Below, in pieces: positions 8,273-64,000 of a stretch of 64,000 nucleotides of DNA; the stretch's first letter is position 1; every line of letters starts with the position of its first letter. The translations under genes were made by a program, and so were the position numbers. This DNA comes from Paragemmobacter kunshanensis (lineage in GTDB: Bacteria > Pseudomonadota > Alphaproteobacteria > Rhodobacterales > Rhodobacteraceae): assembly GCF_011059185.1 (NCBI RefSeq), contig NZ_JAALFE010000003.1:62001-126000 (forward strand), read 5' to 3'. The notes beneath the pieces are model-generated. The model was not told the DNA's origin. It made no database searches and saw only the letters and a program-made list of their open reading frames with translations.

Positions 8273-8352
8273 GAGGTTTCCGATAGTGAACAAAGGCGTC
8301 GTTTTCGCCGGACGTTCCGCCGCTTTAGGGCAATTTTCCCGCTTGTGCCACC

Positions 8353-8418
8353 CCGACCGCCCCGCTATCCCCGTCCGTGGGACACCCCTCCCCAACGAGG
8401 GGCTTTTAGCTGGAAGGC
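8353..8418 (+). promoter_or_regulatory. Candidate serC leader RNA (serC motif)
   Basis: The 150 bases between divergent serB and serC hold two nested structures just before serC. GTCC-GTG-GGAC lies near 8374-8384. A perfect 6-bp stem CCCCTC/GAGGGG (8385-8390 with 8397-8402) follows, then CTTTTAG, and the ribosome site GGAAGG lies directly after. A conserved 'serC' RNA motif is known upstream of serC in alphaproteobacteria; position and layout fit, but I cannot run the covariance model. The outer limits given are approximate. Confidence 0.4.
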
Positions 8419-8422
8419 TACC

Positions 8423-9580
8423 ATGACAGACCTGACACCGCCGGCCAAGCGCCCGGCCAATCCGCGCTTCTCCTCTGGCCCCTGCGCCAAGATCCCCGGC
8501 TTTACCCTTGATCACCTCGCCGACGCGCCCCTGGGCCGCTCGCACCGCGCCGCGGTGGGCAAGGCGAAACTGGCCGAAGCCATCGACCTCACCCGCGAAA
8601 TCCTCGGCGTCCCCGCCGATTACCGCATCGGCATCGTCCCCGGCTCCGACACCGGCGCCGTCGAAATGGCGATGTGGACGATGCTCGGCGCGCGCCCCGT
8701 CGAAATGCTGGCATGGGAAAGCTTCGGCGAAGGCTGGGTCACCGATGTTGTGAAACAGCTCAAGCTGGATGCAGTCGTGAAAAAGGCCCCCTACGGCCAG
8801 ATCGTCGACCTTGCGACCGTAAACTTCGACGCTGACGTGGTCTTCACCTGGAACGGCACCACCTCCGGCGTCCGCCTTCCCAATGCCGACGCAATTCCCG
8901 CGACGCGCCAAGGGCTTACCATCTGCGACGCCACCTCGGCCGCCTTCGCGATGGACCTGCCCTGGGACAAGCTCGACGTCACCACCTTCTCCTGGCAAAA
9001 GGTGCTGGGCGGCGAAGGCGCGCATGGCATGCTGATCCTGTCGCCGCGCGCGGTGGAACGGCTGGAAACCTACACCCCCACATGGCCCCTGCCAAAGATC
9101 TTCCGCCTGACGTCGAAGGGCAAGCTGATCGACGGCATCTTCGTGGGCGAAACGATCAACACCCCCTCGATGCTGGCGGTGGAAGATTACCTCGTCGCGC
9201 TGAAATGGGCGAAATCCGTGGGCGGGCTGAAAGGCCTGATCGCGCGGGCCGAAGCCAACGCCCGCACCGTCTGGGATTTCTGCGCCGCCAATCCGTGGGT
9301 CGCGAACCTTGCCGAAGATCCGGCAACCGCCTCCACCACCAGCGTCTGCCTGAAATTCACCGATCCCCGCATCACCGACGGCGCAACCTTCGCGAAGAAT
9401 GTCGCGAAGCGGCTGGAAAAGGCAGGCGTGGCCTATGACGTTGGCGCCTATCGCGACGCCCCCCCCGGCCTGCGCATCTGGTGCGGATCGACCGTGGAAA
9501 CCGCCGATGTCGCTGCCCTGATGCCGTGGATCGCCCACGCGTTCCAGGCCGAAATCGCCGCACTGGCGCAGGCTGCCTGA
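8423..9580 (+). CDS. serC: Phosphoserine aminotransferase SerC
   Basis: SerC is a PLP enzyme that transaminates 3-phosphohydroxypyruvate to phosphoserine. The 385 residues fit the longer alphaproteobacterial class: [15 protein letters not shown] at the start, and [46 protein letters not shown] contains the PLP-binding lysine (SWQK). [11 protein letters not shown] lies near the end. The start at 8423 has GGAAGG upstream; the frame is open from 8345 but that part lies inside the leader. It is followed by serA in the same direction, so the window holds the complete serine pathway. Confidence 0.94.
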
Positions 9581-9587
9581 CCGGGAC

Positions 9588-9638
9588 GGCGGGGTGAACC
9601 CCGCCCTACCCACCCCTTAGGGCGGGGTTCACCCCGCC
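9588..9638. repeat. Nested palindrome between serC and serA
   Basis: Two 21-base arms (9588-9608 and 9618-9638) are perfect reverse complements separated by 9 bases. Each arm is itself nearly palindromic: GGCGGGGT, two bases, ACCCCGCC. The RNA could form one long hairpin or two short ones. It looks like a REP-type dispersed element that could also act as a terminator or mRNA stabiliser between serC and serA. Confidence 0.6.
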
Positions 9639-9671
9639 ACCCCCCCGAACCCTCAAGAAATGGAGCCCCCA

Positions 9672-11267
9672 ATGGCCCCCCGCGTTCTCGTTTCCGACGA
9701 ACTCTCCGAAACCGCCGTCCAGATCTTCCGCGACCGCGGGGTCGAGGTGGACTACATGCCGAAACTCGGCAAGGACAAGGAAAAGCTGGCCGAACTGATA
9801 GGCCTTTATGACGGCCTCGCCATCCGTTCCGCCACCAAGGTCACCGAAAAGCTGCTCGAAGCTGCGACGAACCTGAAAGTCGTGGGCCGCGCCGGCATCG
9901 GTGTGGACAATGTCGATATCCCTGCCGCGTCCAAGAAGGGCGTCATCGTGATGAACACGCCCTTCGGCAACTCCATCACCACTGCCGAACATGCCATCGC
10001 CATGATGTTCTCCATCGCGCGGCAGATCCCCGAAGCCAACGCCTCCACCCATGCGGGCAAGTGGGAAAAGTCGAAATTCATGGGGGTCGAACTTTTCAAC
10101 AAGACCCTTGGCGTCATCGGCGCGGGCAATATCGGCGGCATCGTCTGCGACCGCGCCGTGGGGCTGAAGATGAAGGTCGTGGCCTATGATCCCTTCCTGT
10201 CGGAAGAACGCGCGAAACAACTGGGCGTCACCAAGGTAGACCTCGACGACCTCCTCGCCCGCGCCGATTTCATCACCCTCCACGTGCCGCTCACCGACAA
10301 GACCCGCAACATCCTGTCGCGCGAGAACCTCGCCAAGACGAAGAAAGGCGTCCGCATCATCAACTGCGCCCGTGGCGGCCTGATCGACGAGGCCGCGCTG
10401 AAGGACGCGCTGGATGCAGGCCATGTCGCCGCCGCCGCGCTGGACGTGTTCGAAGTGGAACCCGCCACCGAAAACGTCCTCTTCAACCACCCCAACGTCG
10501 TCTGCACCCCCCATCTCGGCGCCTCCACGACCGAGGCGCAGGAAAACGTGGCGCTGCAAGTGGCCGAACAGATGTCCGACTACCTGCTCACCGGCGCCGT
10601 TCAGAACGCGCTGAACATGCCCAACGTCACGGCGGAAGAGGCGGCAGTGATGGGGCCGTGGGTCAAGCTTGCCCTGCATCTGGGTGCCTTCATCGGCCAG
10701 ATGACCGATGAACCGATCAAGGCCATCAACATCCTCTACGACGGTGCCGTGGCCGACATGAACCTCGCCGCGCTGAACCAGTCGGTGATCGCGGGTGTCC
10801 TCAAGGCGCATAACCCCGACGTCAACCTCGTCTCCGCCCCCGTGGTGGCCAAGGAACGCGGCATCCAGATCTCCACCACCCGTCAGGAAAAGACGGGCGT
10901 CTTCGATGCCTATATCAAGGTCACGATGGTCACCGACAAGCGCGAACGGTCGGTTGCCGGCACCTGCTTCAGCGATGGCAAGCCGCGCTTCATCCAGATC
11001 AAGGGCATCAACATCGACGCCGAAATCGGCCGCCACATGCTCTATACCACGAACGAGGACGTGCCGGGCATCATCGGCCTTCTGGGCATGACGATGGGCA
11101 AGAACAACGTCAACATCGCGAACTTCACCTTGGGCCGCTCCGGCGTGGGTCAGGATGCCATCGCCATCCTCTACCTCGATCAGGCAATCGACCCGAAGGT
11201 GGTGGAAACGCTCGAATCCACCGGCATGTTCCAACAGGTCAAGCCGCTGGAATTCGAGGTGGCCTGA
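9672..11267 (+). CDS. serA: D-3-phosphoglycerate dehydrogenase SerA
   Basis: SerA oxidises 3-phosphoglycerate to 3-phosphohydroxypyruvate, the committed step to serine. The 531-residue protein is the long type. It has a catalytic domain and a Rossmann domain with GAGNIGG at about 150, then the INCARGGLIDE and HLGASTTEAQENVA active-site segments. An intervening domain and a C-terminal ACT domain (about 460-531, MLYTTNEDVPGIIGLLG) follow; the latter is usually the serine-feedback site. ATG 9672 with TGGAG six bases upstream is preferred over the in-frame ATG at 9660. A strong terminator hairpin follows the gene. Confidence 0.95.
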   Translation: MAPRVLVSDELSETAVQIFRDRGVEVDYMPKLGKDKEKLAELIGLYDGLAIRSATKVTEKLLEAATNLKVVGRAGIGVDNVDIPAASKKGVIVMNTPFGNSITTAEHAIAMMFSIARQIPEANASTHAGKWEKSKFMGVELFNKTLGVIGAGNIGGIVCDRAVGLKMKVVAYDPFLSEERAKQLGVTKVDLDDLLARADFITLHVPLTDKTRNILSRENLAKTKKGVRIINCARGGLIDEAALKDALDAGHVAAAALDVFEVEPATENVLFNHPNVVCTPHLGASTTEAQENVALQVAEQMSDYLLTGAVQNALNMPNVTAEEAAVMGPWVKLALHLGAFIGQMTDEPIKAINILYDGAVADMNLAALNQSVIAGVLKAHNPDVNLVSAPVVAKERGIQISTTRQEKTGVFDAYIKVTMVTDKRERSVAGTCFSDGKPRFIQIKGINIDAEIGRHMLYTTNEDVPGIIGLLGMTMGKNNVNIANFTLGRSGVGQDAIAILYLDQAIDPKVVETLESTGMFQQVKPLEFEVA

Positions 11268-51197: not shown

Positions 51198-51248
51198 CAG
51201 CATGCGGTGCAGTGCGTCAGTGCAGCAGGCCGTGCATACGCAGCGCGC
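51198..51248 (-). promoter_or_regulatory. TGCAC-rich intergenic element, copy B (upstream of alpha-glucosidase gene)
   Basis: Read on the minus strand it contains GCGCTGCGTATGCAC, six bases, CTGCACTG, then CTGCACC, matching copy A (5178-5228) at equal offsets. TTAACGCC lies just upstream. Its position before the start codon suits a regulator site or promoter part. Confidence 0.4.
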
Positions 51249-51321
51249 GCCTGATGAGGAATTGGGCAGGTTGGCGTTAAGGTTTTGGTGAGGGCGGGTG
51301 GGGATGCCCCCCTCTCCCTGA

Positions 51322-51351
51322 CCCTCTCCCCCCGTTCCGGGAGGGAGAGGG
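51322..51351. repeat. REP-like palindrome of CCCTCTCCC type
   Basis: CCCTCTCCC (51322-51330) and GGGAGAGGG (51343-51351) form a 9-bp stem with a 12-base loop, preceded by CCCTCTCCCTGA-type sequence. This style of C-rich palindrome recurs as a dispersed intergenic element in many proteobacteria. Confidence 0.45.
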
Positions 51352-51694
51352 AAGCGCTTCGTTCCCGAGGGGGCGCGCGGGGTGGTGGGCCTTGCAGGGG
51401 GTATTTGGGCCAAGGTGAAGGGGTGGGGGGCGGCGCGGGGTGTCGGGTGGCGCGATTGGGGAGGGAGAGGGAAGCGCTTCGGTCCTGGGGGGGGGCGCGG
51501 GGTGGCGGGCTGTGCAGGGGGTATTTGGGCCAAGGTGAAGGGGTGGGGGTGGGGCGGGGTGTCGGGTGGCGCGATTGGGGGAGGGAGAGGGAGGCGCTTC
51601 GGTCCGGGGGGCGCGCGGGGTGGCGGGCCGTGCAGGGGGTATTTGGGCCAAGGTGAAGGGGCGGGGGCGGCGCGGGGTGTCGGGTGGCGCGATT
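51341..51694. repeat. Three-copy tandem repeat, about 120 bp per unit
   Basis: GAGGGAGAGGGA begins each unit at 51341, 51461 and 51581. Each unit also holds GCGCTTCG, GGGCGCG-type tract, TATTTGGGCCAAGGTGAAG and GGTGTCGGGTGGCGCGATTG. Copies differ by single bases and by the length of G-runs, so they are recent but not identical. The third unit ends at GCGATTG before unique sequence. Confidence 0.85.
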
Positions 51695-51768
51695 GTCTGC
51701 ATCACAAATCTGCATTTGACCTTGCCGGGGGAGGGGAAGAGAAGGTTCGGGAAAGATCGAGGTTTTCC

Positions 51769-53040: not shown

Positions 53041-55101
53041 TCAGCGCAAAGCGGCCTCGATATTGCCGCCATCCACTGTCATGACATGGCCGGTCGTGCG
53101 TTCGGCGCGGGCGAGCATGACGAAAGCCTCGGCGACGTGGCGGGCCTCTACCTCGGCCCTGAGCAGATTGCCCGCCATATAGGTGGCCTCGTCCAGGCCG
53201 CGGGCGGTGGAGCGGGCCTTGATCATGTCTGAGGAGAGCAGGCCTGAACGGATGCGATCCGCGTTGATGCCGTTGACGCGGATGCCTTCGGCCCCGAGTT
53301 CCAGCGCAAGCTGGCGCAAAAGGAAGAAGGTCGTGGCCTTGGGCAGGCCGTAGGCGGCAAAGCCGCGGCCCGGGTTCACGGCCTGTTTCGAGACGTTGAA
53401 GAGGATCTGGCCGGGTTCGGCCCCCCTGGTGCCGCGCGCGGCCTGCTGGGCGCGGAAATGGGCGATGGCGGCCTGGGAGAAGGCCAGATGGGCGAAGAAG
53501 TTCAGCTCGAAGCTGGAGCGGAGCGTGTCGTCGGGCAGGGTGGCGATGTCGCCGGTCACGGCGGCGCCTGCGTTGGAAAGCAGGATGTCGATGCCGCCGA
53601 AGCGGGCGACGCAGGCGGCGACGGCGGCCTCGGCCGCGCCGGGGGCGGTGATGTCGCAACCATGGCCCGCGTGATCGCGGCCAAGCGAGGCTGTGGCGTG
53701 ATCCAGCGCCTCGCCCGGGCGATCCACGAGGAAGAGGCTGGCCCCCTGGGCGGCGAAGGCGCGGGCGGAGGCAAGGCCGATAGCCCCGGCGCCACCTGTC
53801 ACCAGAACGATGCGGCCTTGCAGGGGGGCGGGTTTGCCGCTGCCGAGCTTGGCCTGTTCGAGCGACCAGTATTCCATGTCGAACAGGTCTTGCGCGCCGA
53901 TGGGGAAGAAGCCGCCCACCGCTTCGCCATCGGCGCGGACGCGGGCGGATTGGCAGCCGATATCGGCGGCGATGCGGGCGGCGGCGGCGGTGGCGCCGAT
54001 GCCGGCGATGCCCGCGCCTTCGAGCCAGACAAGGCCGGGCATGGGGGCGAGCATGGTTTTCGGCTCAGCCGCGCGGGGGGCGTGGCGTTCGAAATAGGCG
54101 CGGTAGCGGGTGGCGTAGTCCTGCACGGCGGCGCGCATCGCTTCGGCCGATTGGGCGGCGCGGCGCAGGAGCAGCGGTTCGGCCTTGGTGCGGATCACGT
54201 GATCGGGGGTGGCGACGCCGCGGGTGGCGAGGGTTTCCAGATCGGGGCGGGCGCAGAAGGCGCGGTCGGCCTCGGCCGTGCGGAGGTCGATCAGGGGAAG
54301 GGGGGCGTTGTCGGGCAGGGCCGAGGCGAGCGCGCCGCGCAGGGCGGAGAGGAGGGGGGCGCTGGCTGAGGCGGGCAGGGCGGCGGCGGGGACGAGCGGG
54401 GCGGGGCGGCGGTCGGCCAGCCAGGCGGCGACAAGGCCGGTATGGGCGAGGATGCGGTCATAGCTGGCGCGGGCATCGGGGCCCCAGGCGAAATGGCCGT
54501 GATTGACCAGAAGCAGACCTTCGGCTTCGGGATTTTCGTCATAGGCGCGGGCGGCGGCCTTGGCCAGGGCAAAGCCCGGCATGACATAGGGAACGAGAGT
54601 GAGCCGGTCGCCAAAGAGTTCGCGGGTGACGGCGGCGACTTCGGGCAGGTTGGCGAGGGTGAGGAAGGCCGTGGCATGGGTGTGATCCACGACCTTGTGC
54701 GGGATCCAGGCATGCAGCAGGGTTTCCACGGATGGGTTGGGGGCCTGGGGATCGAGGAGGTTCAGGCGCTGGACATTGACCATCGCCTCGTCCGAGAGGG
54801 CGGGCAGGTCGCGCAGGCGCATCAGGGGTTCCATCCGGACGGCGGGCAGGCCGCGGGCCTCGATCGTTTCGAGATCCCAGCCGGAGCCCTTGATGTGCAG
54901 CACATCGACCACCGCGCCGAAGACATCCGTGGCGGTGGATTTGAGCGAGGTGTTGCCGCCGCCATGCATGACCAGATCGGGATCGCGCCCGATGAGGCGC
55001 GAGGTATAGACCCGCAGCGCCAGATCGCGGGCCCGAGTCTCTGGCCCGGCGGCGGCGAGGAGGGCCTCGGCTTCGGCATCGTTCCAGAGATTGGTGATCA
55101 T
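53041..55101 (-). CDS. Class II aldolase fused to short-chain dehydrogenase
   Basis: The 686-residue protein joins two enzymes. Residues 1 to about 400 are a class II (zinc) aldolase with VMHGGGNTSLK, metal histidines in DHTHATAFL (about 139-143) and LLLVNHGHFAWG. From about 425 comes an SDR domain with the NAD motif TGGAGAIG and an active-site YGLPK. Fusions of this kind are known for rhamnulose-1-phosphate (DHAP plus lactaldehyde, then oxidation). Here no rhamnose isomerase or kinase is present, and mtnK/mtnA are in the same regulon. I infer cleavage of 5-methylthioribulose-1-phosphate or 5-deoxyribulose-1-phosphate to DHAP and an aldehyde that the SDR part oxidises or reduces. ATG 55101 with AGGAG six bases upstream is preferred. 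Confidence 0.85.
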   Translation of the reverse strand: MITNLWNDAEAEALLAAAGPETRARDLALRVYTSRLIGRDPDLVMHGGGNTSLKSTATDVFGAVVDVLHIKGSGWDLETIEARGLPAVRMEPLMRLRDLPALSDEAMVNVQRLNLLDPQAPNPSVETLLHAWIPHKVVDHTHATAFLTLANLPEVAAVTRELFGDRLTLVPYVMPGFALAKAAARAYDENPEAEGLLLVNHGHFAWGPDARASYDRILAHTGLVAAWLADRRPAPLVPAAALPASASAPLLSALRGALASALPDNAPLPLIDLRTAEADRAFCARPDLETLATRGVATPDHVIRTKAEPLLLRRAAQSAEAMRAAVQDYATRYRAYFERHAPRAAEPKTMLAPMPGLVWLEGAGIAGIGATAAAARIAADIGCQSARVRADGEAVGGFFPIGAQDLFDMEYWSLEQAKLGSGKPAPLQGRIVLVTGGAGAIGLASARAFAAQGASLFLVDRPGEALDHATASLGRDHAGHGCDITAPGAAEAAVAACVARFGGIDILLSNAGAAVTGDIATLPDDTLRSSFELNFFAHLAFSQAAIAHFRAQQAARGTRGAEPGQILFNVSKQAVNPGRGFAAYGLPKATTFFLLRQLALELGAEGIRVNGINADRIRSGLLSSDMIKARSTARGLDEATYMAGNLLRAEVEARHVAEAFVMLARAERTTGHVMTVDGGNIEAALR

Positions 55102-55169
55102 GGGCATCTCCTGCTAAGGCTGGGCGGCGGGCGGTGACGGGCGCGCTGCGCACTTGGAATTTCTACTTT

Positions 55170-55188
55170 TGTCAGATACTATTGTCAA
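55170..55188. promoter_or_regulatory. Operator-like site 1 of the SorC regulon
   Basis: TGTCAGATACTATTGTCAA lies between the divergent aldolase and regulator genes. It matches 58602-58620 at 15 of 19 positions (consensus TGTCARAYRCTATTGWCAA) and is followed by more GTCAAA half-sites. It is the likely binding site of the SorC-type regulator, covering both start regions. Confidence 0.6.
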
Positions 55189-55209
55189 AGGTCAAAAAGT
55201 GGGGTGGGG

Positions 55210-56177
55210 ATGGCGGTGACGACACGGCGGCGCAATCTGGCGCAGGTCAGCGGCGAGAATGCCGTGATCCAGGTGGCGTGGATGTATTACCAGGATGGCC
55301 GGAACCAGCAGGAGATCGCCGAGACGCTGGGGATTTCGCGGGCGACGGTGGTGAATTACCTGCAGGAGGCGCGGGAGAAGGGGTTGATCCGCATCACCCT
55401 GGCCGCGCCGGCCTTCACGACGCATCGGCTGGCGCTGGAACTGACGGAAAGGTTCGGGCTGCGGGGGGCCTATGTCATCCCCGATGAGGGCACGGAGGCG
55501 GAAGAGGGGTTCCTGCGCGTGGTGCGGGGGGCGGCGAACTGGCTGCCTGACCTGATCGCCCCGGGCGACCGGCTGGGCGTGGCCTGGGGGCGGACGGTCT
55601 ATGAACTGGCCGAGATGGTGGAGCCGATGCCGGTGGAGGATCTGACGATCCTGCAACTGGTGGGGTCGATGGCGACGCCCTATGGCTTTACCGCCGAAGC
55701 CTGTTCGACGCGGCTGGCGCAGCGGCTGCGGGCGCGCTGTCTGAACCTGCATGCCCCCGCCATCGTGAGCCGGGCCGCGCTGGCCGAGGAGTTGCGCGAG
55801 GAGCCCATCCTGAAGGCGCAGCTTGATCAGCTGGAGACGGTGAACAAGCTGCTGTTCTCGGTCGGGACGGCGACATCGGACAGCCATATCGTGCTGAGCG
55901 GTCTGGCCACGCGCGCGGATCTGGATTGGTATGTGGCGCAGGGCGCGGTGGGGGTGATCTGCGGGCGGTTCATTGATGCCGAGGGGCGGCAACTGCCCGG
56001 CCCGATGGAGGACCGGATGATCGGCGTGCCCCTGCCCCGGCTGGTGGGGCTGGAGATGGGCATCCTGATCACGCCGGGGATGGACAAGGTCGCCGCCACG
56101 CGGGCGGCGATCCGGGGTGGTTATGTCACGCATCTGGTGACCGGCACGACCGTGGCCGAGGCGCTGCTGGCCGCGCC

Positions 56178-56181
<4 letters not shown>
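55210..56181 (+). CDS. SorC-family sugar-binding transcriptional regulator
   Basis: The 323 residues have an N-terminal helix-turn-helix ([35 protein letters not shown], about 28-62). The SorC/DeoR-type sugar-phosphate-binding domain follows ([62 protein letters not shown]). The effector is probably the phosphorylated sugar made by MtnK/MtnA. ATG 55210 follows a G-rich ribosome site; GTG 55204 is possible. It is divergent from the aldolase gene and convergent with mtnA, with stop codons overlapping. Confidence 0.9.
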
Positions 56182-57277
<1,096 letters not shown>

Positions 57278-57281
<4 letters not shown>

Positions 57282-58543
57282 AGGTGGGTCTCCTTGTCCA
57301 TGCGGCGGGCCATGGCGGTGACGGTGCCGATCCCGCGGATCGAGCCCGCGCCCAGCATGAGTTGGCGGCCCATGGCCAGCGCGCGCGCCTCGCAGGCGGC
57401 GCGGCGGCCTTCATCCGCAATCCGTTCGAAATCGGCATTGTGGGCGAGGCCGAGGATGCGGCGGTGCATCTCGATCCCGCAGAAGCCGAGCATGTCCTGC
57501 CAGATCCGGCCGAGCAGATCGTCAAGCGCCTGTTCGGCGGCGAGGGCGTGGCCCTGATCTTCGTAGAGGCTGGCCTGATAGAGGATGCCGCGGCGTTCCG
57601 TGCGCCAGAGGTGGCTGAATTCGGTGGTGAAGCTTTGCCAGAGGGTTTCGACGATGCCGAGGAGCCAGTCCTGGTGATCGGCGCGCTGGCCGGGGGCGGA
57701 TTCGTGGCCCGGCTGGCTGAAATGGGCCATGAGGAAGTTGGCAATCAGCATCCCGATATCAAAGCCGAAGGGGCCGTAGGTGGCGAATTCCGGGTCGATC
57801 ACCCGGGTTTCGGTATCGGTCACCATGATGGAGCCGGTGTGCAGATCGCCGTGCAGCAGGGTTTCGGCCCGGCTGGTGAAGGCCAGTTTCAGATGCTGGG
57901 CCGCGACCTTGAGCGAGAGATCGCCGCGCAGGCGGGCCACGATGCCATCAAGCCCCGGCGTGTGCCGGTTCAGGGGGGCGGCGAAATAGGGATCGGAGAA
58001 GACGAGGTTTTCGGTGATGTCGCAGAGTTCGACATTGGCTGCAAAGAGCGCCAGATCGGCCTTGCGGGCGGGGGCTGGCATGGAAAGATCGGAGCCGCGG
58101 AACAGGGTGCGGGCGCAGAATTCGCCCAGCCTTTCGCCAAGCCCCGCGACGCGCCGCCCGGCGATCAGGGCCTGACGCAGGATCACATGGGGGGTCAGGA
58201 ATTCCATCACGACGATGGCCTGACCCTCGTCGAAATGCCAGACGGCGGGGACGGAGCCGGGATCGCGCGCCTCTTGCCGGATCAGGGCGTTGTATTCGAA
58301 GAAGGCGCGGCGCAGCGGCAGGGGCCAGCTTTCGCCCACCAGCCGGACATAGGGCAGGGCCTGCTTGACCACCGCCTGCCCGGCGCTGCCCGTGACGATG
58401 AAGACGAGGTTGAGGTTGCCATCGCCAACCTCTTTCACCTGCCAGGTTTCTGGGGGGCCGACCCTTTCGCGCAGGATCGCGAGCCCGCCCAGGCGCCTGG
58501 GCAGGCTTTCGGGTGACAATGCAAGATAGCCCTCTGCGGACAT
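57278..58543 (-). CDS. mtnK: 5-methylthioribose kinase MtnK
   Basis: MtnK phosphorylates free 5-methylthioribose (in some species also 5-deoxyribose) at C1. The 421 residues show the family N-terminus ([27 protein letters not shown]). [13 protein letters not shown], the catalytic loop [15 protein letters not shown] and the metal-binding [23 protein letters not shown] follow, all specific for MtnK within the APH superfamily. GGAGG lies eight bases before ATG 58543. It is divergent from the ABC importer across a 120-base region carrying operator 2. No nucleosidase or phosphorylase (mtnN/mtnP) is nearby, so the sugar is probably imported free. Confidence 0.92.
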
Positions 58544-58601
58544 GCGGCATTCCTCCCGTTTCCGCCTTCCTCAGGTGCAGCATTTCCAAAATTCCAGCAT
58601 A

Positions 58602-58620
58602 TGTCAAACGCTATTGACAA
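58602..58620. promoter_or_regulatory. Operator-like site 2 of the SorC regulon
   Basis: TGTCAAACGCTATTGACAA contains a perfect inverted repeat TGTCAA-N6-TTGACA. Its two TTGACA arms are placed as the -35 elements of divergent promoters towards mtnK and towards the ABC genes. It shares 15 of 19 bases with site 1 (55170-55188), so a bound regulator would block both directions. Confidence 0.65.
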
Positions 58621-58641
58621 TTGATGAAGTGAAGGTAGCGT
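58614..58641 (+). promoter_or_regulatory. Promoter of the ABC importer operon
   Basis: TTGACA (58614-58619), 16 bases, then TAGCGT (58636-58641, three of six matches). The -35 is one arm of operator 2; the start codon is 23 bases after the -10. Confidence 0.4.
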
Positions 58642-58663
58642 TGGCGTCAGGGAGAGAGACCGC

Positions 58664-60178
58664 ATGACATCGCAGGCCATCACCATACGTGGGCTGACCA
58701 AGGCCTTTGGCCGCAACGCGGTGTTGCGTGGCGTGGATCTGGATCTGCCCGCGGGGCAGGTGACGGTGCTGATGGGGGCCAACGGGGCGGGGAAATCCAC
58801 GCTGGTCAAGGTGCTGTGCGGGGTGCATGCGGCGGATGCGGGCGAGATCCGGCTGGATGGGCGGGCCTTTGCCCCGGCGGGGCCTGCGGCGGCGCTGCGG
58901 TCGGGCGTGGTGACGGTGCATCAGAACATCAATGATGGCGTGGTGCCGGATCTGGATGTGGCCTCGAACCTGCTGCTGGATTCGCTGGCCGAAGGGGGCG
59001 GGCTGTTCCTGAACCGGCGGCGGATGCGGGCCGAGGCGGGGAAGATCGCCGCGGCGATCGGGCTGGAGCTGGACATGGCGCGCCCGGTGGCGGGGCTGTC
59101 GCTGGCCGACCGGCAGCTTGTGGCGATTGCCCGGGCGATGGCGCATCGGCCGCGGCTTCTGATCCTGGATGAACCGACGTCATCGCTTTCGCTGACCGAG
59201 GCGCAGCGGTTGTTTGCGCTGATCGACAGGCTGCGGGGCGAGGGGGTGGCGATTCTTTATATCTCGCACCGCATGTCGGATATCCGGCGGCTGGCGGACC
59301 GGATCGTTTCCATGCGCGACGGGCAGGTTTCGGGCCTGTTCGAGACGGTGCCGCTGGATTATTCGGGCGCGGTGCGGGCCATGCTGGGGCATGAGATCAC
59401 CGAGGTGGATATCGCGATCCCGGTGCCGGGGGCGGTGATGCTGGAGGCGCGGGGGCTGCGGTTGAAGCCCGAGGCGCGGGCCTTTGACCTGACCCTCCGG
59501 CGGAATGAGGTGGTGGCGATCACCGGGCTGGTGGGATCGGGCAAGTCGGCGCTGGCGGCGGCGCTGTTCGGGCTGGAGGCGCCGGTGGCGGGGGAGATGC
59601 GGCTGGACGGGCGGGACTATCGCCCGCGCCGCCCGGCCGAGGCGGTGGCGGAAGGGGTGTTCCTGGCGGCGAAGGACCGGCTGATCAATGCGGTGGTGCC
59701 CGGCTTTGACATCCAGCAGAACCTGACGCTGCCCTTCACGCCGCGCCATGCCGGGCCTCTGGGCCTGATCCGGCGGGCGGCAGAGCGGGCGGCGGCAGAG
59801 CGGGCCATCGCGGCGATGGGAGTGGTCTGTCAGGGGCCGCGGGACGGGATCCTGACGCTGTCGGGGGGCAATCAGCAGAAGGTGGTCGTCGGGCGCTGGA
59901 TGGCCGAGGCGAGCCGGTTGCTGATCCTGGACGAGCCGTTTCAGGGCGTGGACATCCAGGCCCGGCGCGATATCGGGCGGCGCATCCGCGACAGCGCGGC
60001 CGAGCGCGCCACGCTGGTCCTGTGTGCCGAGATCGACGAGGCGCTGGAAGTGGCGGACCGCATCCTTGTGATGAGCGAGCATACGCTGGTGGGGGACCAC
60101 CGGAACGAGAATATCGACCTTGCCCGCCTGATGACGGAAGTCTCGGGCGCGGCCGACCGGACGAAGGAACCCGCATGA
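58664..60178 (+). CDS. Ribose-type ABC importer, double ATP-binding protein
   Basis: The 504-residue protein has two fused ATPase domains, as in RbsA. Domain 1 has Walker A MGANGAGKST and Walker B LLILDEPTSSLSLTE, but its signature is degenerate (LSLADRQ). Domain 2 has GLVGSGKSALAAALF and the normal signature LSGGNQQKVVVGRW with LLILDEPFQGVD. It energises uptake of a monosaccharide, here probably a 5-modified ribose. AGGGAGAG lies upstream. The stop overlaps the permease start (ATGA, 60175-60178). Confidence 0.92.
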   Translation: MTSQAITIRGLTKAFGRNAVLRGVDLDLPAGQVTVLMGANGAGKSTLVKVLCGVHAADAGEIRLDGRAFAPAGPAAALRSGVVTVHQNINDGVVPDLDVASNLLLDSLAEGGGLFLNRRRMRAEAGKIAAAIGLELDMARPVAGLSLADRQLVAIARAMAHRPRLLILDEPTSSLSLTEAQRLFALIDRLRGEGVAILYISHRMSDIRRLADRIVSMRDGQVSGLFETVPLDYSGAVRAMLGHEITEVDIAIPVPGAVMLEARGLRLKPEARAFDLTLRRNEVVAITGLVGSGKSALAAALFGLEAPVAGEMRLDGRDYRPRRPAEAVAEGVFLAAKDRLINAVVPGFDIQQNLTLPFTPRHAGPLGLIRRAAERAAAERAIAAMGVVCQGPRDGILTLSGGNQQKVVVGRWMAEASRLLILDEPFQGVDIQARRDIGRRIRDSAAERATLVLCAEIDEALEVADRILVMSEHTLVGDHRNENIDLARLMTEVSGAADRTKEPA

Positions 60179-61188
60179 AATCCCTTTCCCTGACCGAACT
60201 GGCGATCCGCTACGGCTTTCTTCTGCTGATGGCTGGGCTGATCGTGGTGTTTTCGGTCCTGCGCCCGGCCTTCCTTTCGCCGCAGAGCGGGGTGTTCATC
60301 CTGCAATCGGTGGCGATCACGGGGATTCTGGCGCTGGGGGTGACGGCCACGCTGGTGGTGGACGGGTTCGACCTGTCGATCGGGGCGGTGGCGACATCGG
60401 CGATGATGCTGTCGGCCTATGTGATGGTGATCTGGGAGATGGGCGCGGTGCCCGCCGTGCTGCTGTGCCTGGGGATGGGCGCGCTGGTGGGGCTGGTGAA
60501 CGGGTTGCTGATCGTGAAGATGCGGGTGCCGGACCTGCTGGCCACGCTGGGGATGATGTTCCTGCTGGTGGGGTTGCAGCGCATTCCGACGCAGGGCAAT
60601 TCCATCTCGACCGGGATGATGCTGCCGGGCGGGCAGGCCGCCGAGGGCAGTTTCGCGCCGGAATTCCTGATGCTGGGGCGGCATCGGATCGACTTCATCC
60701 TGCCGGATCTGGTGCCGCTTTCGGTGGTGGTGCTGATCGTGATCGCGCTTCTGACATGGGCCTTCCTGGAACTGACGCGGCATGGCCGGGTGATGTATGC
60801 GATCGGATCGAATGCGCAGGCGGCGGGGCTGGCGGGGATCAATGTCGCGGGATACCGGATACTCGCCTATGTGATTTCGGGGGTCATGGCCTCGATCGGG
60901 GGGATCCTGCTGGCGGCGCGGCTGGGGCGGGGGGATGTCGCCTCGGGGAACAACCTGCTGCTGGATTCGGTGGCGGCGGCGCTGATCGGCTTTGCCGTGC
61001 TGGGCGCGGCCAAGCCCAATGCCTTTGGCACGGCCATCGGGGCGCTGTTCGTGGGGATCCTGCTGCAGGGTCTGACCATGCTGAACGCGCCTTACTACAC
61101 GCAGGATTTCATCAAGGGTGCCGTGCTGGTCGTGGCGCTTGTCTTCACCTTTGCCCTGTCCGGCCGTGTCGGCCGGGCGCGGCGCTGA
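60175..61188 (+). CDS. Ribose-type ABC importer permease
   Basis: An RbsC-like inner-membrane subunit of 337 residues with about nine hydrophobic segments. It has the family motifs LALGVTATLVVDGFDLSIGAVA, GALVGLVNGLLIVKMRVPDLLATLGMMFLLVGLQ, AIGSNAQAAGLAGINVAGYRILAYVISG and GFAVLGAAKPNAFGTAIGALFVGIL. It is coupled to the ATPase gene by ATGA and followed 70 bases later by the binding-protein gene. Confidence 0.92.
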   Translation: MKSLSLTELAIRYGFLLLMAGLIVVFSVLRPAFLSPQSGVFILQSVAITGILALGVTATLVVDGFDLSIGAVATSAMMLSAYVMVIWEMGAVPAVLLCLGMGALVGLVNGLLIVKMRVPDLLATLGMMFLLVGLQRIPTQGNSISTGMMLPGGQAAEGSFAPEFLMLGRHRIDFILPDLVPLSVVVLIVIALLTWAFLELTRHGRVMYAIGSNAQAAGLAGINVAGYRILAYVISGVMASIGGILLAARLGRGDVASGNNLLLDSVAAALIGFAVLGAAKPNAFGTAIGALFVGILLQGLTMLNAPYYTQDFIKGAVLVVALVFTFALSGRVGRARR

Positions 61189-61258
61189 GCCTGCCGGAAA
61201 GGCTGCCGGAAGAAGCGGCCCGCCGGTCACTGACATTCACGGAGAATGGGAGGAACCA

Positions 61259-62296
61259 ATGATCTCCAGACGGATTTTCGCAGCACTCGTTTCCGGCGTC
61301 GCGCTGGTGCCTGGCCTTGCGCTGGCGCAGGATGCGCCCGCGCCCTTTGACAATCCCGGCGATGTGAACATCGCGCTGGTGCGCTATCTTTCGACCGGCG
61401 ACTTCTTCCAGGCCTATCTTTCGGGCGTGGAGAAGCAGGCGGCGGCGCTGGGCGTGAACCTGCAGGTCTTTGACAGCCGTCAGGATGCGGCGCTGCAGGC
61501 GGATATGGTGGATCAGGCCATCGCGCTGGGCGTGGACGGGATCATCATCCAGCACGGGCTGACCGAATCCATGAAGGAGGCCGCGCAGCGGGCCGTGGAT
61601 GCGGGGATCAAGGTCGTGGCCTTTGACGTGAACGTGGAGAATGCCGCCATTCCGCAGGTGGAACAGTCCGACGCCGCGCTGGCGCAACTGGCGCTGGATC
61701 AGGCGATTGCCGACAATGGTGCGGAATGGGTGGCGGGCTTCGTGCATGTTGCGGGGATCGCGCCGCTGGATCGCCGCGCCGCCGTCTGGGAAGAGGTGAA
61801 GGCCGCCAATCCCGGGATCAACGAAGTGGCGATGTTCGGCACGCTGGACAACCCCATCGCGAATTCGGTCGCCAATCAGGCGCGTTCGGTGCTGTCGGCC
61901 AATCCGAACATCCAGGTGATGTTCGCGCCCTATGACGAATTCGCCAAGGGCGTGAAGATCGCCGTGGACGAGGCGGGCATGTCGGGGCAGGTGTCGATCT
62001 ATTCGGCCGATATCTCGACCGCCGATATCCAGCTGATGCGCGAGGAAGGATCGGCCTGGAAGGCCACGGCGGCCACCAACCCGGCCGTGGTGGGCGAGGT
62101 TTCGGTGCGGTCGCTGGCGCTGCTGCTGGCGGGCGAGAATCCGGGGGCGAGCGTGATCGTGCCGCCGACGCTGATCACCCAGGCGATGCTGAACGAGCTG
62201 GACATCAAGAACATGGAAGAGCTGGGCGCGAAGCTGCCCGCCTTTGCCCATGCCGATGTGGCGATGGCGCCGTGGATGACGCTGCCGCCCCGCTGA
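61259..62296 (+). CDS. Ribose-type periplasmic sugar-binding protein
   Basis: The 345 residues begin with a signal peptide (RRIFAALVSGVALVPGLALAQ). The type I periplasmic-binding fold follows: NIALVRYLSTGDFFQAYLSGVEKQAAALG, VDQAIALGVDGIIIQHGLTESM, GIKVVAFDVNVEN and PNIQVMFAPYDEFAKGVKIAVDEAG. It supplies ligand to the preceding ATPase/permease. The ligand is likely the sugar fed to MtnK; ordinary ribose cannot be excluded. GGGAGG lies upstream of ATG 61259. Confidence 0.92.
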   Translation: MISRRIFAALVSGVALVPGLALAQDAPAPFDNPGDVNIALVRYLSTGDFFQAYLSGVEKQAAALGVNLQVFDSRQDAALQADMVDQAIALGVDGIIIQHGLTESMKEAAQRAVDAGIKVVAFDVNVENAAIPQVEQSDAALAQLALDQAIADNGAEWVAGFVHVAGIAPLDRRAAVWEEVKAANPGINEVAMFGTLDNPIANSVANQARSVLSANPNIQVMFAPYDEFAKGVKIAVDEAGMSGQVSIYSADISTADIQLMREEGSAWKATAATNPAVVGEVSVRSLALLLAGENPGASVIVPPTLITQAMLNELDIKNMEELGAKLPAFAHADVAMAPWMTLPPR

Positions 62297-62358
62297 GGAT
62301 GCACCAACCGGGCGGGCCGTCGCAGGCCCGCCCCCTGCCCGCACAGGAGAGAGAGCCC

Positions 62359-63288
62359 TTGCGCAACGAGAAGACCACCGAAGAGATCGCGCGCGGCATC
62401 CGTGCCCGCGTCTTCGAACATACGATCCGCAACAATGGTGGATATCTGAGCCAGGCCTGTTCGGCGGCGGAGCAGTTGGCCTTTCTGTATAACGAGGGGC
62501 TGAACCTTGGCCCGTCGACCATGCCGATGGTGCCGCCGCCCTTTGGCGGCGTGCCCTCGGCGGACAATCCGGATTATGTGACGGGCGCGGGCTATAACGG
62601 GCCCTTCGATGCCGTGCATGACCGGCTGTTCATCGCGCCCGCGCATTACGCGCTGGTCGCCTATGCCTGCCTGATCGAGGTGGGGCGCATGGCGCCCGAG
62701 GGGCTTGGGATGTTCAACCGCGACGGATCGTCGGTCGAGATGATCGGGGCCGAGCATTCTCCGGGGATGGAGGTGCATAACGGCACGCTGGGGATCGGGC
62801 TTTCGACGGCGGCGGGGCTGGCCTGGGGGCGCAAGCGGATGGGCCATAGCGGGCAGGTCTGCGTGTTCATGTCGGATGGCGAGGTGCAGGAGGGCCAGAC
62901 ATGGGAGGCCGTGCAGGCCGCCGCGCATCACGGGATCGACAATCTGTGGGCGATCATGGACGTGAACCGCCAGCAATGCGACGGCGCGATGGACGAGGTG
63001 ATGACGGTGGGCGACATCGCCACGAAGTTCCGCGATTTCGGCGCGGTGGTGGCCGAATGCGATGCGCATGACCTGAAGGCGATGCGCGCGGCGCGGGCGA
63101 CGCCGCATCCGGGGCGGCCGCTGATCGTGCTGGCCCATTCGCGCCCGACGCAGGGGATGGAAAGCCTGATGAGCCGCTTCCCGCGCCTGCATTACGTGCG
63201 TTTCAAATCCGAGGAGGAGCGCGCGCGGATGAATATCGAGATCGCCGCCGAGCTTGGCGTGGCGCCCGTTGCCCTGGAGGCCCATTGA
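62359..63288 (+). CDS. Transketolase-like protein, N-terminal (ThDP pyrophosphate) subunit
   Basis: The 309-residue protein is the N-terminal half of a split transketolase. It has NNGGYLSQACSAAEQLAFLY and APAHYALVAYACLIEVGRM where transketolase has the SKGHA segment. GAEHSPGMEVHNGTLGIGLSTAAGLAWGRKR and the ThDP/metal motif MSDGEVQEGQTWEA (Ser replaces the usual Gly of GDGE) follow. A TTG start at 62359 after AGGAGAGAG is proposed; ATG 62299 is an alternative. It overlaps the C-terminal subunit by one base. Split pairs of this sort serve special sugar pathways, such as apulose-4-phosphate transketolase (AptA/AptB); the substrate here is unknown. Confidence 0.85.
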   Translation: MRNEKTTEEIARGIRARVFEHTIRNNGGYLSQACSAAEQLAFLYNEGLNLGPSTMPMVPPPFGGVPSADNPDYVTGAGYNGPFDAVHDRLFIAPAHYALVAYACLIEVGRMAPEGLGMFNRDGSSVEMIGAEHSPGMEVHNGTLGIGLSTAAGLAWGRKRMGHSGQVCVFMSDGEVQEGQTWEAVQAAAHHGIDNLWAIMDVNRQQCDGAMDEVMTVGDIATKFRDFGAVVAECDAHDLKAMRAARATPHPGRPLIVLAHSRPTQGMESLMSRFPRLHYVRFKSEEERARMNIEIAAELGVAPVALEAH

Positions 63289-64000
63289 TGGAGATGGTCA
63301 ACCGGCCCTATGCGGCCGCCTTTGAAGCCTATGCCGTGCAGCATCCCGAGGTTCTGTGCCTGTCGGCGGACCTGACGTCGAGCTGCGAGATCGACGGGTT
63401 CCGCGACCGGCATCCGGATCAGTTCCTGTCGCTGGGGATGGCCGAGCAGAACATGCTGTCTTTCGCGGGCGGCCTTGGCCTTGCCGGGTTCCGGCCCTTT
63501 CTGCATTCCTTCGGGGTATTCCTCTATCGGCGGCCCTATGACCAGCTGATGGCCTCGGTCGCCTATCCGCGGCGGAAGGTGCGGCTGATGGGGTTCCTGC
63601 CCGGGGTCACGACGCCGGGGGGCATGACGCATCAGGCGATCGAGGATATCTCGGTCATGCGGACGATCCCGAACATGACGGTGCTTGAGGCGGGGGATGC
63701 GACCGAGGTGGAAAGCATCGTGGCCGAGGCCGACCGGGTGGATGGCCCGGTCTATTGCCGCATCCTGCGCGGGGCGGTGCCGCGGCTGTTCGATACGCCG
63801 ATCCGCATCGGGCAGATGCGGGTGCTGGCCGAGGGCGAGGATGTGCTGGTGGTGACCGCCGGGATCACCACGGAAGAGGCGATCCGCGCGCGGGGGGCGC
63901 TGGCGCGAGCGGGGGTTTCGGTGCGGCATCTGCATCTGAACACGTTGAAGCCCTTTGACGCGGCGCAGATCGTGGACCATGCCGCCAGCGTGCGCCATGG
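63288..64000 (+). CDS. Transketolase-like protein, C-terminal subunit (3' end outside window)
   Basis: The visible 237 codons carry the ThDP pyrimidine-binding domain: LCLSADLTSSCEIDGFRDRHPDQFLSLGMAEQNMLSFAGGLGL with the catalytic Glu in MAEQNM. HSFGVFLYRRPYDQL, GMTHQAIEDISVMRTIPNMTV and the start of the C-terminal domain (LVVTAGITTEEAI) follow. It pairs with the preceding subunit to give one active enzyme. The frame is open to base 64000, so the end and any further genes of the operon are unseen. Confidence 0.85.
   Translation, partial: MEMVNRPYAAAFEAYAVQHPEVLCLSADLTSSCEIDGFRDRHPDQFLSLGMAEQNMLSFAGGLGLAGFRPFLHSFGVFLYRRPYDQLMASVAYPRRKVRLMGFLPGVTTPGGMTHQAIEDISVMRTIPNMTVLEAGDATEVESIVAEADRVDGPVYCRILRGAVPRLFDTPIRIGQMRVLAEGEDVLVVTAGITTEEAIRARGALARAGVSVRHLHLNTLKPFDAAQIVDHAASVRH

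Follow-up and report, generated by a model that had tools for sequence, protein, structure and literature searches.

Described systems closest to the locus

5-Methylthioribose (MTR) is a sugar that contains sulfur and arises as a by-product when methionine is metabolised. MTR and 5-deoxyribose are handled by the dihydroxyacetone phosphate (DHAP) shunt of Rhodospirillum rubrum, Bacillus thuringiensis and some Escherichia coli strains, which consists of a kinase, an isomerase and a class II aldolase (MtnK-MtnA-Ald2, or drdK-drdI-drdA). The same three enzyme types are encoded by the locus analysed here, which lies in a 64,000-nucleotide stretch of the Paragemmobacter kunshanensis genome (hereafter the window; positions 62001-126000 of contig NZ_JAALFE010000003.1, C41 of genome G000 in our numbering), where it occupies positions 53041-64000 and continues beyond the end. 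We consider that this locus probably directs the regulated uptake of MTR, and perhaps of 5-deoxyribose, followed by breakdown through two exits, one using the aldolase and the other a RuBisCO-like protein (RLP) together with a split transketolase.

According to the available text of the reports cited in this section, DHAP shunt clusters resemble the locus in other respects too. Transport-linked clusters were noted in 2018, together with the suggestion that exogenous 5-deoxyribose may be salvaged (PMC6079011), and the E. coli operon includes a putative permease and is repressed by YjhU, recently renamed MtnR, a regulator of the DeoR/SorC type also found here (PMC12632272). With this shunt, E. 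coli can grow on externally supplied 5-deoxyribose, as well as on 5'-deoxyadenosine and 5'-methylthioadenosine (MTA) (PMC10986504). Moreover, MTR uptake by mtnXYZ, linked to MtnK and MtnA, has been predicted for gammaproteobacteria carrying mtnKABCDE (PMC4239095). A DHAP shunt fed by an external sugar, which is how the first-pass annotation interpreted the locus, is thus an already known type of system.

The locus nevertheless departs from each of these systems. Compared with the DHAP shunt, it carries a RhaD-type aldolase fused to a short-chain dehydrogenase/reductase (SDR), a CUT2 ABC importer with an MTR-type binding protein, and an added RLP and split transketolase, apparently in the same regulon. 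The MTA-isoprenoid shunt of R. rubrum and Rhodopseudomonas palustris (MtnP-MtnA-DeepYkr RLP-cupin) has in common with it MtnA, an RLP that groups with the cupin-partnered clade, and MtnP, which is encoded elsewhere in our genome; here, however, the cupin is missing, a split transketolase is found instead, and MtnK and the importer would allow the use of external MTR. Unlike the predicted mtnXYZ/mtnKABCDE systems, the locus is not associated with the mtnBCD route (no acireductone dioxygenase match in the genome), and both its lower pathway and its regulator are different. Finally, the sulfo-transketolase pathway also combines a two-subunit transketolase (SqwGH) with a sulfur-bearing sugar and altered sugar-binding residues, but its substrate is a sulfonate rather than a thioether, the C2 unit that it moves is sulfur-free, and no RLP is part of the pathway in the available text of that report (PMC11659671). 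In the open-access literature, as far as its text was available, we found nothing linking an RLP to a transketolase in MTA or MTR metabolism. To our knowledge, a pathway built on such a pair would be the first of its sort, and what appears to be new here is a conserved, apparently co-regulated RLP and split transketolase replacing the cupin.

Predicted uptake and activation of methylthioribose

Family models confirmed the gene calls of the first-pass annotation at 53041-64000, namely MtnK, MtnA, a class II aldolase, a ribose-type ABC importer, a SorC/DeoR-type regulator and a split transketolase. The 5-methylthioribose kinase MtnK (57278-58543, minus strand) scores 473.8 bits against TIGR01767 (cut-off 275) and the 5-methylthioribose-1-phosphate isomerase MtnA (56178-57281, minus strand) 423 bits against TIGR00512 (cut-off 279), so that both the kinase and the isomerase of the DHAP shunt are represented; MtnA is also the sole IF-2B family match in the genome. 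On the plus strand, divergently from mtnK, family models identify the ATPase (58664-60178; AraG/ribose/LsrA type) and the permease (60175-61188) of a CUT2 importer. They are followed by a periplasmic binding protein (61259-62296), whose best PDB match, by sequence as well as by fold, is the solved 5-methylthioribose binding protein 4ry8. The structural model of this protein is alignment-based (mean predicted local distance difference test score, pLDDT, 87.6) and replaced a single-sequence fold with a mean pLDDT of 40.6. Judging from these matches, the importer appears to take up MTR, and perhaps also 5-deoxyribose.

It had been claimed that no nucleosidase or phosphorylase is present. This is true of the locus, but not of the genome, where we found MtnP, a purine nucleoside phosphorylase (PNP), DeoD and an AMP nucleosidase, though no MtnN nucleosidase among its four PNP_UDP_1 proteins. 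The genome also yielded no match to the acireductone dioxygenase family (MtnD), by which canonical methionine salvage would be recognized. As the genome carries an MTA phosphorylase but neither MtnN nor MtnD, MtnK most plausibly serves imported MTR. We regard the conversion of MTR to 5-methylthioribulose-1-phosphate, predicted from these homologies, as very likely.

The aldolase gene (53041-55107, minus strand) encodes a 688-aa fusion protein of the PRK08324 group, with a class II aldolase domain at residues 34-221 and an SDR domain at about 429-682. The fused aldehyde/alcohol dehydrogenase of the first-pass annotation is this SDR domain, the C-terminal part of the aldolase protein, and not a separate gene. 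The fusion passes the NF006192 model (836.6 bits, cut-off 639) and stays below the cut-offs of NF006195 (902.9 bits, cut-off 931) and of the rhamnulose-1-phosphate aldolase/alcohol dehydrogenase model TIGR02632 (404.6 bits, cut-off 567.75). Relatives of the SDR domain are thought to oxidise lactaldehyde. We rejected L-rhamnose use as a function of the locus, given the TIGR02632 score, the presence of MtnK and MtnA, and the fact that no rhamnose isomerase or kinase was seen at the locus. We propose instead a 5-methylthioribulose-1-phosphate aldolase joined to an aldehyde-oxidising SDR.

A RuBisCO-like protein probably related to a cupin-partnered clade

The RLP gene begins 286 bases past the window end (plus strand, 372 aa; contig positions 126286-127404, equivalent to 64286-65404 if the window is extended) and overlaps the end of the gene for the transketolase C-terminal subunit by 4 bases. 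The right arm of the locus has the order ABC-ABC-ABC-transketolase N-transketolase C-RLP, with the start of the RLP gene inside the end of the transketolase C gene; the next gene is on the opposite strand and, by eye, apparently unrelated.

The RLP is the sole RuBisCO_large family match in its genome and falls well below the models for characterized RLPs: 121.4 bits against the MtnW model TIGR03332 (cut-off 513.6), 167.8 against NF007095 (cut-off 409) and 78.9 against the OiaX (isoapionate) model NF042437 (cut-off 700). We therefore discarded OiaX as an identity, as well as the MtnW (YkrW) enolase, since the RLP additionally has N87 where the MtnW structure 4nas has the catalytic Lys of the FGK motif. 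Apiose use via ApsAB and OiaX was set aside more weakly, on the OiaX score and with no ApsAB sequence compared. Among PDB entries, 3QFW is the closest (E 2.9e-66; 38% identity); we take it to be R. palustris RLP1, an assignment supported by the cupin adjacency described below. In R. palustris, RPA2169 (rlp1) was identified as a 5-methylthioribulose-1-phosphate 1,3-isomerase by mutants, metabolites and assays, and the neighbouring cupin RPA2170 as a methylthioxylulose-5-phosphate methylsulfurylase by mutants and metabolites, according to the available part of that report (PMC5893883). A search with 3QFW gave some match in 47 of 385 genomes of the class, 14 of them with best matches at 52-62% identity (the 3QFW group). 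A cupin adjoins the RLP in 13 of these 14 loci, the exception ending at a contig end. This cupin belongs to the family of Rru_A2000 (3jzv, E 2.5e-52), which we take to be the methylsulfurylase of R. rubrum.

Scanning with an RLP alignment identified 278 relatives, and the analysis was continued with the 80 best loci among them; by their titles, all or nearly all are alphaproteobacterial, so they are not independent of one another. A tree of 56 RLPs was built from 31 of these 80, the window protein, two RLPs from other families (L172 and L173), 13 cupin-type RLPs, 3QFW, 4NAS and seven others; L090 and L094 were counted as transketolase type, although their transketolase sits elsewhere in the genome. 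The cupin-partnered RLPs, including 3QFW, form one group (SH-like approximate likelihood ratio test, SH-aLRT, 99), with all 34 transketolase-type rows on the other side, and the two types together form a group (SH-aLRT 98) to which MtnW and the remaining forms do not belong; the tree was a quick one, and the program warned of long branches. The two types are on average about 36% identical and both retain K136, K161, D163, H164, N82, N87, H252 and parts of the GGRF, GGM and GG stretches. The RLPs of L172 and L173 adjoin transketolase C genes of 58% identity, and L172 also an N gene of 55%.

When 29 transketolase-type genomes were searched for the methylsulfurylase cupin (our own and 28 others), no match was detected in our genome or in 27 of the 28 others, and the single weak match (E 3.2e-5) had 34% identity over about 70 residues. 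Conversely, none of the 14 cupin-type genomes carries a close orthologue of the transketolase C subunit (best 43% in one, at most 38% in the others), while the same search gave 58% in two transketolase-type genomes. Thus, in the genomes searched, cupin and split transketolase alternate as RLP partners. As the two partners are unrelated and the RLPs are related, the alternation suggests two chemical answers for methylthioxylulose-5-phosphate. We consider it likely that the RLP is a 5-methylthioribulose-1-phosphate 1,3-isomerase, as its sequence and gene context suggest.

Substrate-binding residues of the split transketolase

The split transketolase comprises an N-terminal, thiamine diphosphate (ThDP)-binding subunit (about 62353-63288, plus strand, from a putative TTG start at 62353) and a C-terminal subunit assigned by family models (63285-64000, plus strand, running on past the window to 64289). 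We compared the window protein with those of 13 other loci, using the numbering of E. coli TktA. In all 14 sequences the ThDP/Mg-binding and catalytic residues H66, G114, D155, E160, N185, E411 and H473 are kept, as are D381, S385, F434, F437 and R520; R358 is kept in 13 and is Lys in one. By contrast, H26 is replaced by Tyr, H100 by Met and D469 by Gly in 14 of 14. H461 and H261 fall in alignment gaps relative to TktA, and the position of H461 is Leu in an alignment with the split transketolase 6yaj.

In transketolase, H26, H100, H461 and D469 recognize hydroxyls: H100 contacts the one at C1 of the donor, and D469 the one next to the carbonyl of the acceptor. The phosphate is held by R358, S385 and R520. 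In Dxs, the residues corresponding to H26 and H100 are Phe and Val. The residue pattern of the split transketolase would suit a donor that carries a phosphate and lacks the C1 hydroxyl, for instance 1-methylthio- or 1-deoxyxylulose-5-phosphate, and such a donor is the expected product of the RLP. That the split transketolase acts on the RLP product seems to us moderately probable. A housekeeping transketolase was rejected, since our genome has nine Transket_pyr matches, eight of them other proteins, and the other genomes searched also have long-frame paralogues. One relative (L113) encodes a second ThDP protein, AceE/transketolase-like, directly after the RLP (8308-10647, 779 aa, below all cut-offs).

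Conservation in related genomes

The first-pass annotation had proposed looking for the same gene set in related genomes, and the set does recur in tens of alphaproteobacterial loci, with different arrangements; the gene association is therefore not due to chance. Within the family, 21 of 120 genomes gave an MtnK match (19 long matches, including our own, and two short fragments). The 18 other family regions fetched around MtnK, some of which end at contig ends, include seven with both transketolase subunits and the RLP and nine with the aldolase fusion, and relatives of the binding protein are found in 12 of them at 74-94% identity and in one at 40%. Five of these regions share their contigs with five RLP loci of the 80-locus set (four with identical mtnK/ABC regions), so the counts of the two sets should not be summed.

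Of the 80 RLP loci, 75 contain transketolase N, 76 transketolase C, 68 MtnA, 63 MtnK, 63 the binding protein and 52 the aldolase, counts which include partial copies at contig or flank ends and are affected by several short contigs and by the 10-kb flank, which truncates the aldolase in a window-type layout. At the genome level, transketolase N is present in 80 of 80 (in the five cases outside the locus, at 72-95% identity) and MtnA in 79 of 80, being found elsewhere in 14 of the 15 genomes whose locus lacks it on the open reading frame (ORF) map. Among the 17 loci without MtnK, eight belong to genomes with MtnK elsewhere and nine to genomes without it. A PNP-type gene is clustered at five RLP loci and an amidohydrolase at four. 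In three genomes lacking MtnK (L087, L106 and L113) a PNP-type gene is close to the RLP, joined in L087 and L113 by an amidohydrolase; in L087 the PNP exceeds its cut-off and the amidohydrolase, of the deaminase superfamily, is under all cut-offs. Thus, the upstream route varies while MtnA, RLP and transketolase stay. Clustering of the other neighbours of these loci gave no further consistent partner beyond PNP- and deaminase-type genes, several clusters looking like antisense ORFs. FucU/RbsD-like genes occur at 18 of the 80 loci (between L043 and L122), which fits the import of a free sugar interconverting between anomers.

A putative shared operator

The regulator (55204-56181, plus strand; Sugar-bind domain) shares 36% identity over 322 aa with E. 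coli YjhU. A putative operator, TGTCAA-N6-TTGACA (58602-58619, on neither strand in particular), is located in the divergent mtnK/ABC promoter region, and a second, palindrome-like putative site (55170-55187, minus strand) lies between the aldolase and regulator genes. A relaxed operator pattern, written only after the sequences had been inspected, matched the 64-kb window at these two places only and gave no match in 100 shuffles.

Since the two sets of relatives share contigs, operator counts were redone on the 80 loci plus the window. The best match to the palindrome WGTCAA-N6-TTGACW is perfect (12 of 12 consensus positions) in 55 of the 62 mtnK/ABC intergenic regions; with the overlapping sets combined, the figures are 62 of 74 regions for a perfect mtnK/ABC site and 47 of 53 for aldolase promoters with a site. 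A weight matrix trained on the mtnK/ABC regions was then applied to other promoters, with block shuffles as control. At p<0.01 it detected the operator upstream of the aldolase in 41 of 46 loci. Genomes differ in whether the transketolase and RLP genes come after the binding protein gene or form a unit of their own. The operator precedes 17 of 22 stand-alone transketolase units at p<0.01, the remaining five (p 0.015-0.045) resembling variants of the site; for transketolase genes placed behind the binding protein gene in an operon, it reaches p<0.01 in just four of 36 upstream regions. As most stand-alone units carry the same operator, the transketolase-RLP unit appears, from its promoter sequences, to belong to the MTR regulon, and we infer that the neighbouring regulator binds the palindrome. 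Scans for sigma-70 promoters and terminators gave nothing exceeding shuffles.

Proposed pathway and alternatives

In the scheme that we favour, external MTR would enter through the ABC importer, be phosphorylated by MtnK to MTR-1-phosphate and be isomerised by MtnA to 5-methylthioribulose-1-phosphate, all units being controlled by the SorC/DeoR-type regulator through one palindromic operator. At the first exit, the aldolase would split this intermediate into DHAP and 2-(methylthio)acetaldehyde, which the SDR domain probably oxidises. At the second, the RLP would 1,3-isomerise it to 1-methylthioxylulose-5-phosphate, and the split transketolase, standing in for the methylsulfurylase cupin of the MTA-isoprenoid shunt, would cut the C2-C3 bond to give glyceraldehyde-3-phosphate and a methylthio-C2 unit on ThDP. 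The transketolase step and the fate of this unit are the most conjectural parts of the scheme: it might be transferred, be released as methylthioacetaldehyde, or lose methanethiol to leave an acetyl unit. Sulfoacetaldehyde acetyltransferase, which eliminates sulfite, provides a model for the last of these. By this analogy, a thiamine enzyme might cleave 1-methylthioxylulose-5-phosphate and then eliminate methanethiol, yielding glyceraldehyde-3-phosphate, methanethiol and an acetyl unit, a version which we put forward only tentatively. If true, it would be an oxygen- and glutathione-independent full split of MTR into usable carbon and sulfur.

Several observations weigh against the two-exit scheme. 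All its steps are predictions from sequence and gene context. No gene at the locus indicates an acceptor for the C2 unit or a means of discharging it, and the presence of an aldolase and an RLP-transketolase pair at one locus looks redundant. Neither the RLP nor the split transketolase reaches any NCBIfam RLP or transketolase model, and the reaction of the RLP could have changed, given an identity of only about 36-38% with the cupin-partnered clade. Among the relatives, one genome (L109, a 2.3-Mb metagenome-assembled genome) has neither MtnA nor MtnK, and identity falls to only 44-48% for the MtnA of L087 and L113. Two loci (L112 and L117) pair the transketolase-RLP genes with a kinase of the PfkB type, a different class II aldolase and a different ABC importer, MtnK and MtnA lying elsewhere in these genomes. 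Lastly, some relatives carry other lower modules, namely LsrF- and epimerase-like genes (L032), LsrF-like genes (L069 and L072) or Ald2-like genes (L038, L040, L067 and L122), so that the route after MtnA is not fixed.

The locus could also be a plain transport-coupled DHAP shunt, in which MTR or 5-deoxyribose is processed by MtnK, MtnA and the aldolase only, and the transketolase and RLP serve an unrelated neighbouring pathway. Relatives such as L032 and L039 indeed have MtnK, MtnA, the aldolase and the importer without the RLP-transketolase pair in the 20-kb region that was fetched and searched, and the available text of an earlier report describes putative sugar transporters in DHAP shunt clusters (PMC6079011). 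This explanation nonetheless accounts poorly for the near-constant presence of transketolase N and MtnA in RLP genomes (80 and 79 of 80), for the operator upstream of most stand-alone transketolase units and for the grouping of the RLP with the methylsulfurylase-cupin-partnered clade, and we hold it to be unlikely. What the first-pass annotation suggested, use of an external 5-modified ribose via the DHAP shunt, is upheld in part.

Two further explanations keep the RLP and transketolase together but change their substrate. Chemically, 1,3-isomerisation of 5-deoxyribulose-1-phosphate gives 1-deoxyxylulose-5-phosphate (DXP), and the RLP might make DXP or its methylthio-analogue, with a DXP-synthase-like split protein and a locus mainly feeding the methylerythritol phosphate pathway. 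The C subunit does match the dxs model TIGR00204 (117.1 bits for the part in the window, 150.5 for the full subunit of L034), short of the cut-off of 465.95, and the H100 position is hydrophobic both in Dxs (Val) and in this family (Met). However, an ABC importer and a SorC-type regulator at the same locus are in keeping with a catabolic role, one of the eight other Transket_pyr proteins is likely to be a separate Dxs, and the phosphate residues R358 (Lys in one of 14), S385 and R520 are kept where E. coli Dxs has Lys, Gly and Arg; this makes the biosynthetic explanation highly improbable. Only slightly less improbable is another ribose-like substrate (ribose, apiose or autoinducer 2), MtnK, MtnA and the RLP being recruited paralogues with altered specificity. 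Split transketolases are known for other sugars: ApsAB acts on apulose-4-phosphate. SqwGH acts on sulfofructose, according to the available text of its report (PMC11659671), and some relatives have an LsrF-like thiolase at this locus. Against this stand the scores of MtnK and MtnA, far above equivalog cut-offs, the status of MtnA as the only IF-2B match in the genome, and the similarity of the binding protein to an MTR binding protein, its closest match; the OiaX, LsrA and RbsB models are not reached.

The two-exit scheme would link an RLP clade and a split transketolase to external sulfur-sugar uptake in many Rhodobacterales and Hyphomicrobiales, and would give a testable function to proteins for which no NCBIfam model is reached. 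If it is true, these bacteria can draw on methylthioribose that other organisms release, which would affect how organic sulfur and methanethiol are cycled.

Additional genes at related loci and in the window

Single-domain class II aldolases resembling Ald2/FucA adjoin the regulator in L038 (6578-7234) and L040 (12704-13399), the SDR fusion not being found in those regions; L067 has both single-domain and fusion kinds. In L032 (3396-5432), an LsrF-type thiolase (507 bits, cut-off 297) lies beside the binding protein together with ribulose-phosphate-3-epimerase-like and FucU-like genes, both under cut-off. In L030 (4389-5977), an LsrF-type thiolase and an epimerase-like gene, assigned by eye, also stand beside the binding protein. 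As the LsrF substrate, 3-hydroxy-2,4-pentadione-5-phosphate (P-HPD), is 5-deoxyribulose-1-phosphate oxidised at C4, these genes may represent a third lower route.

A BisC-family S/N-oxide reductase is encoded near the transketolase-RLP genes in L112 (11131-13434; 848 bits, cut-off 1017.55) and, by eye, in L117 (11129-13438) and L106 (3556-5874); it could reflect the use of MTR or MTA sulfoxide. Genes resembling DhaK/DhaL (dihydroxyacetone kinase type) were seen by eye near the locus in L025 (17789-18987), L040 (15138-16738) and L052 (8521-9522). In the window itself, positions 51200-51700, between alpha-glucosidase-like and major facilitator superfamily genes, contain by eye several near-identical short GC-rich repeats, which give repeated peptide units in several frames.

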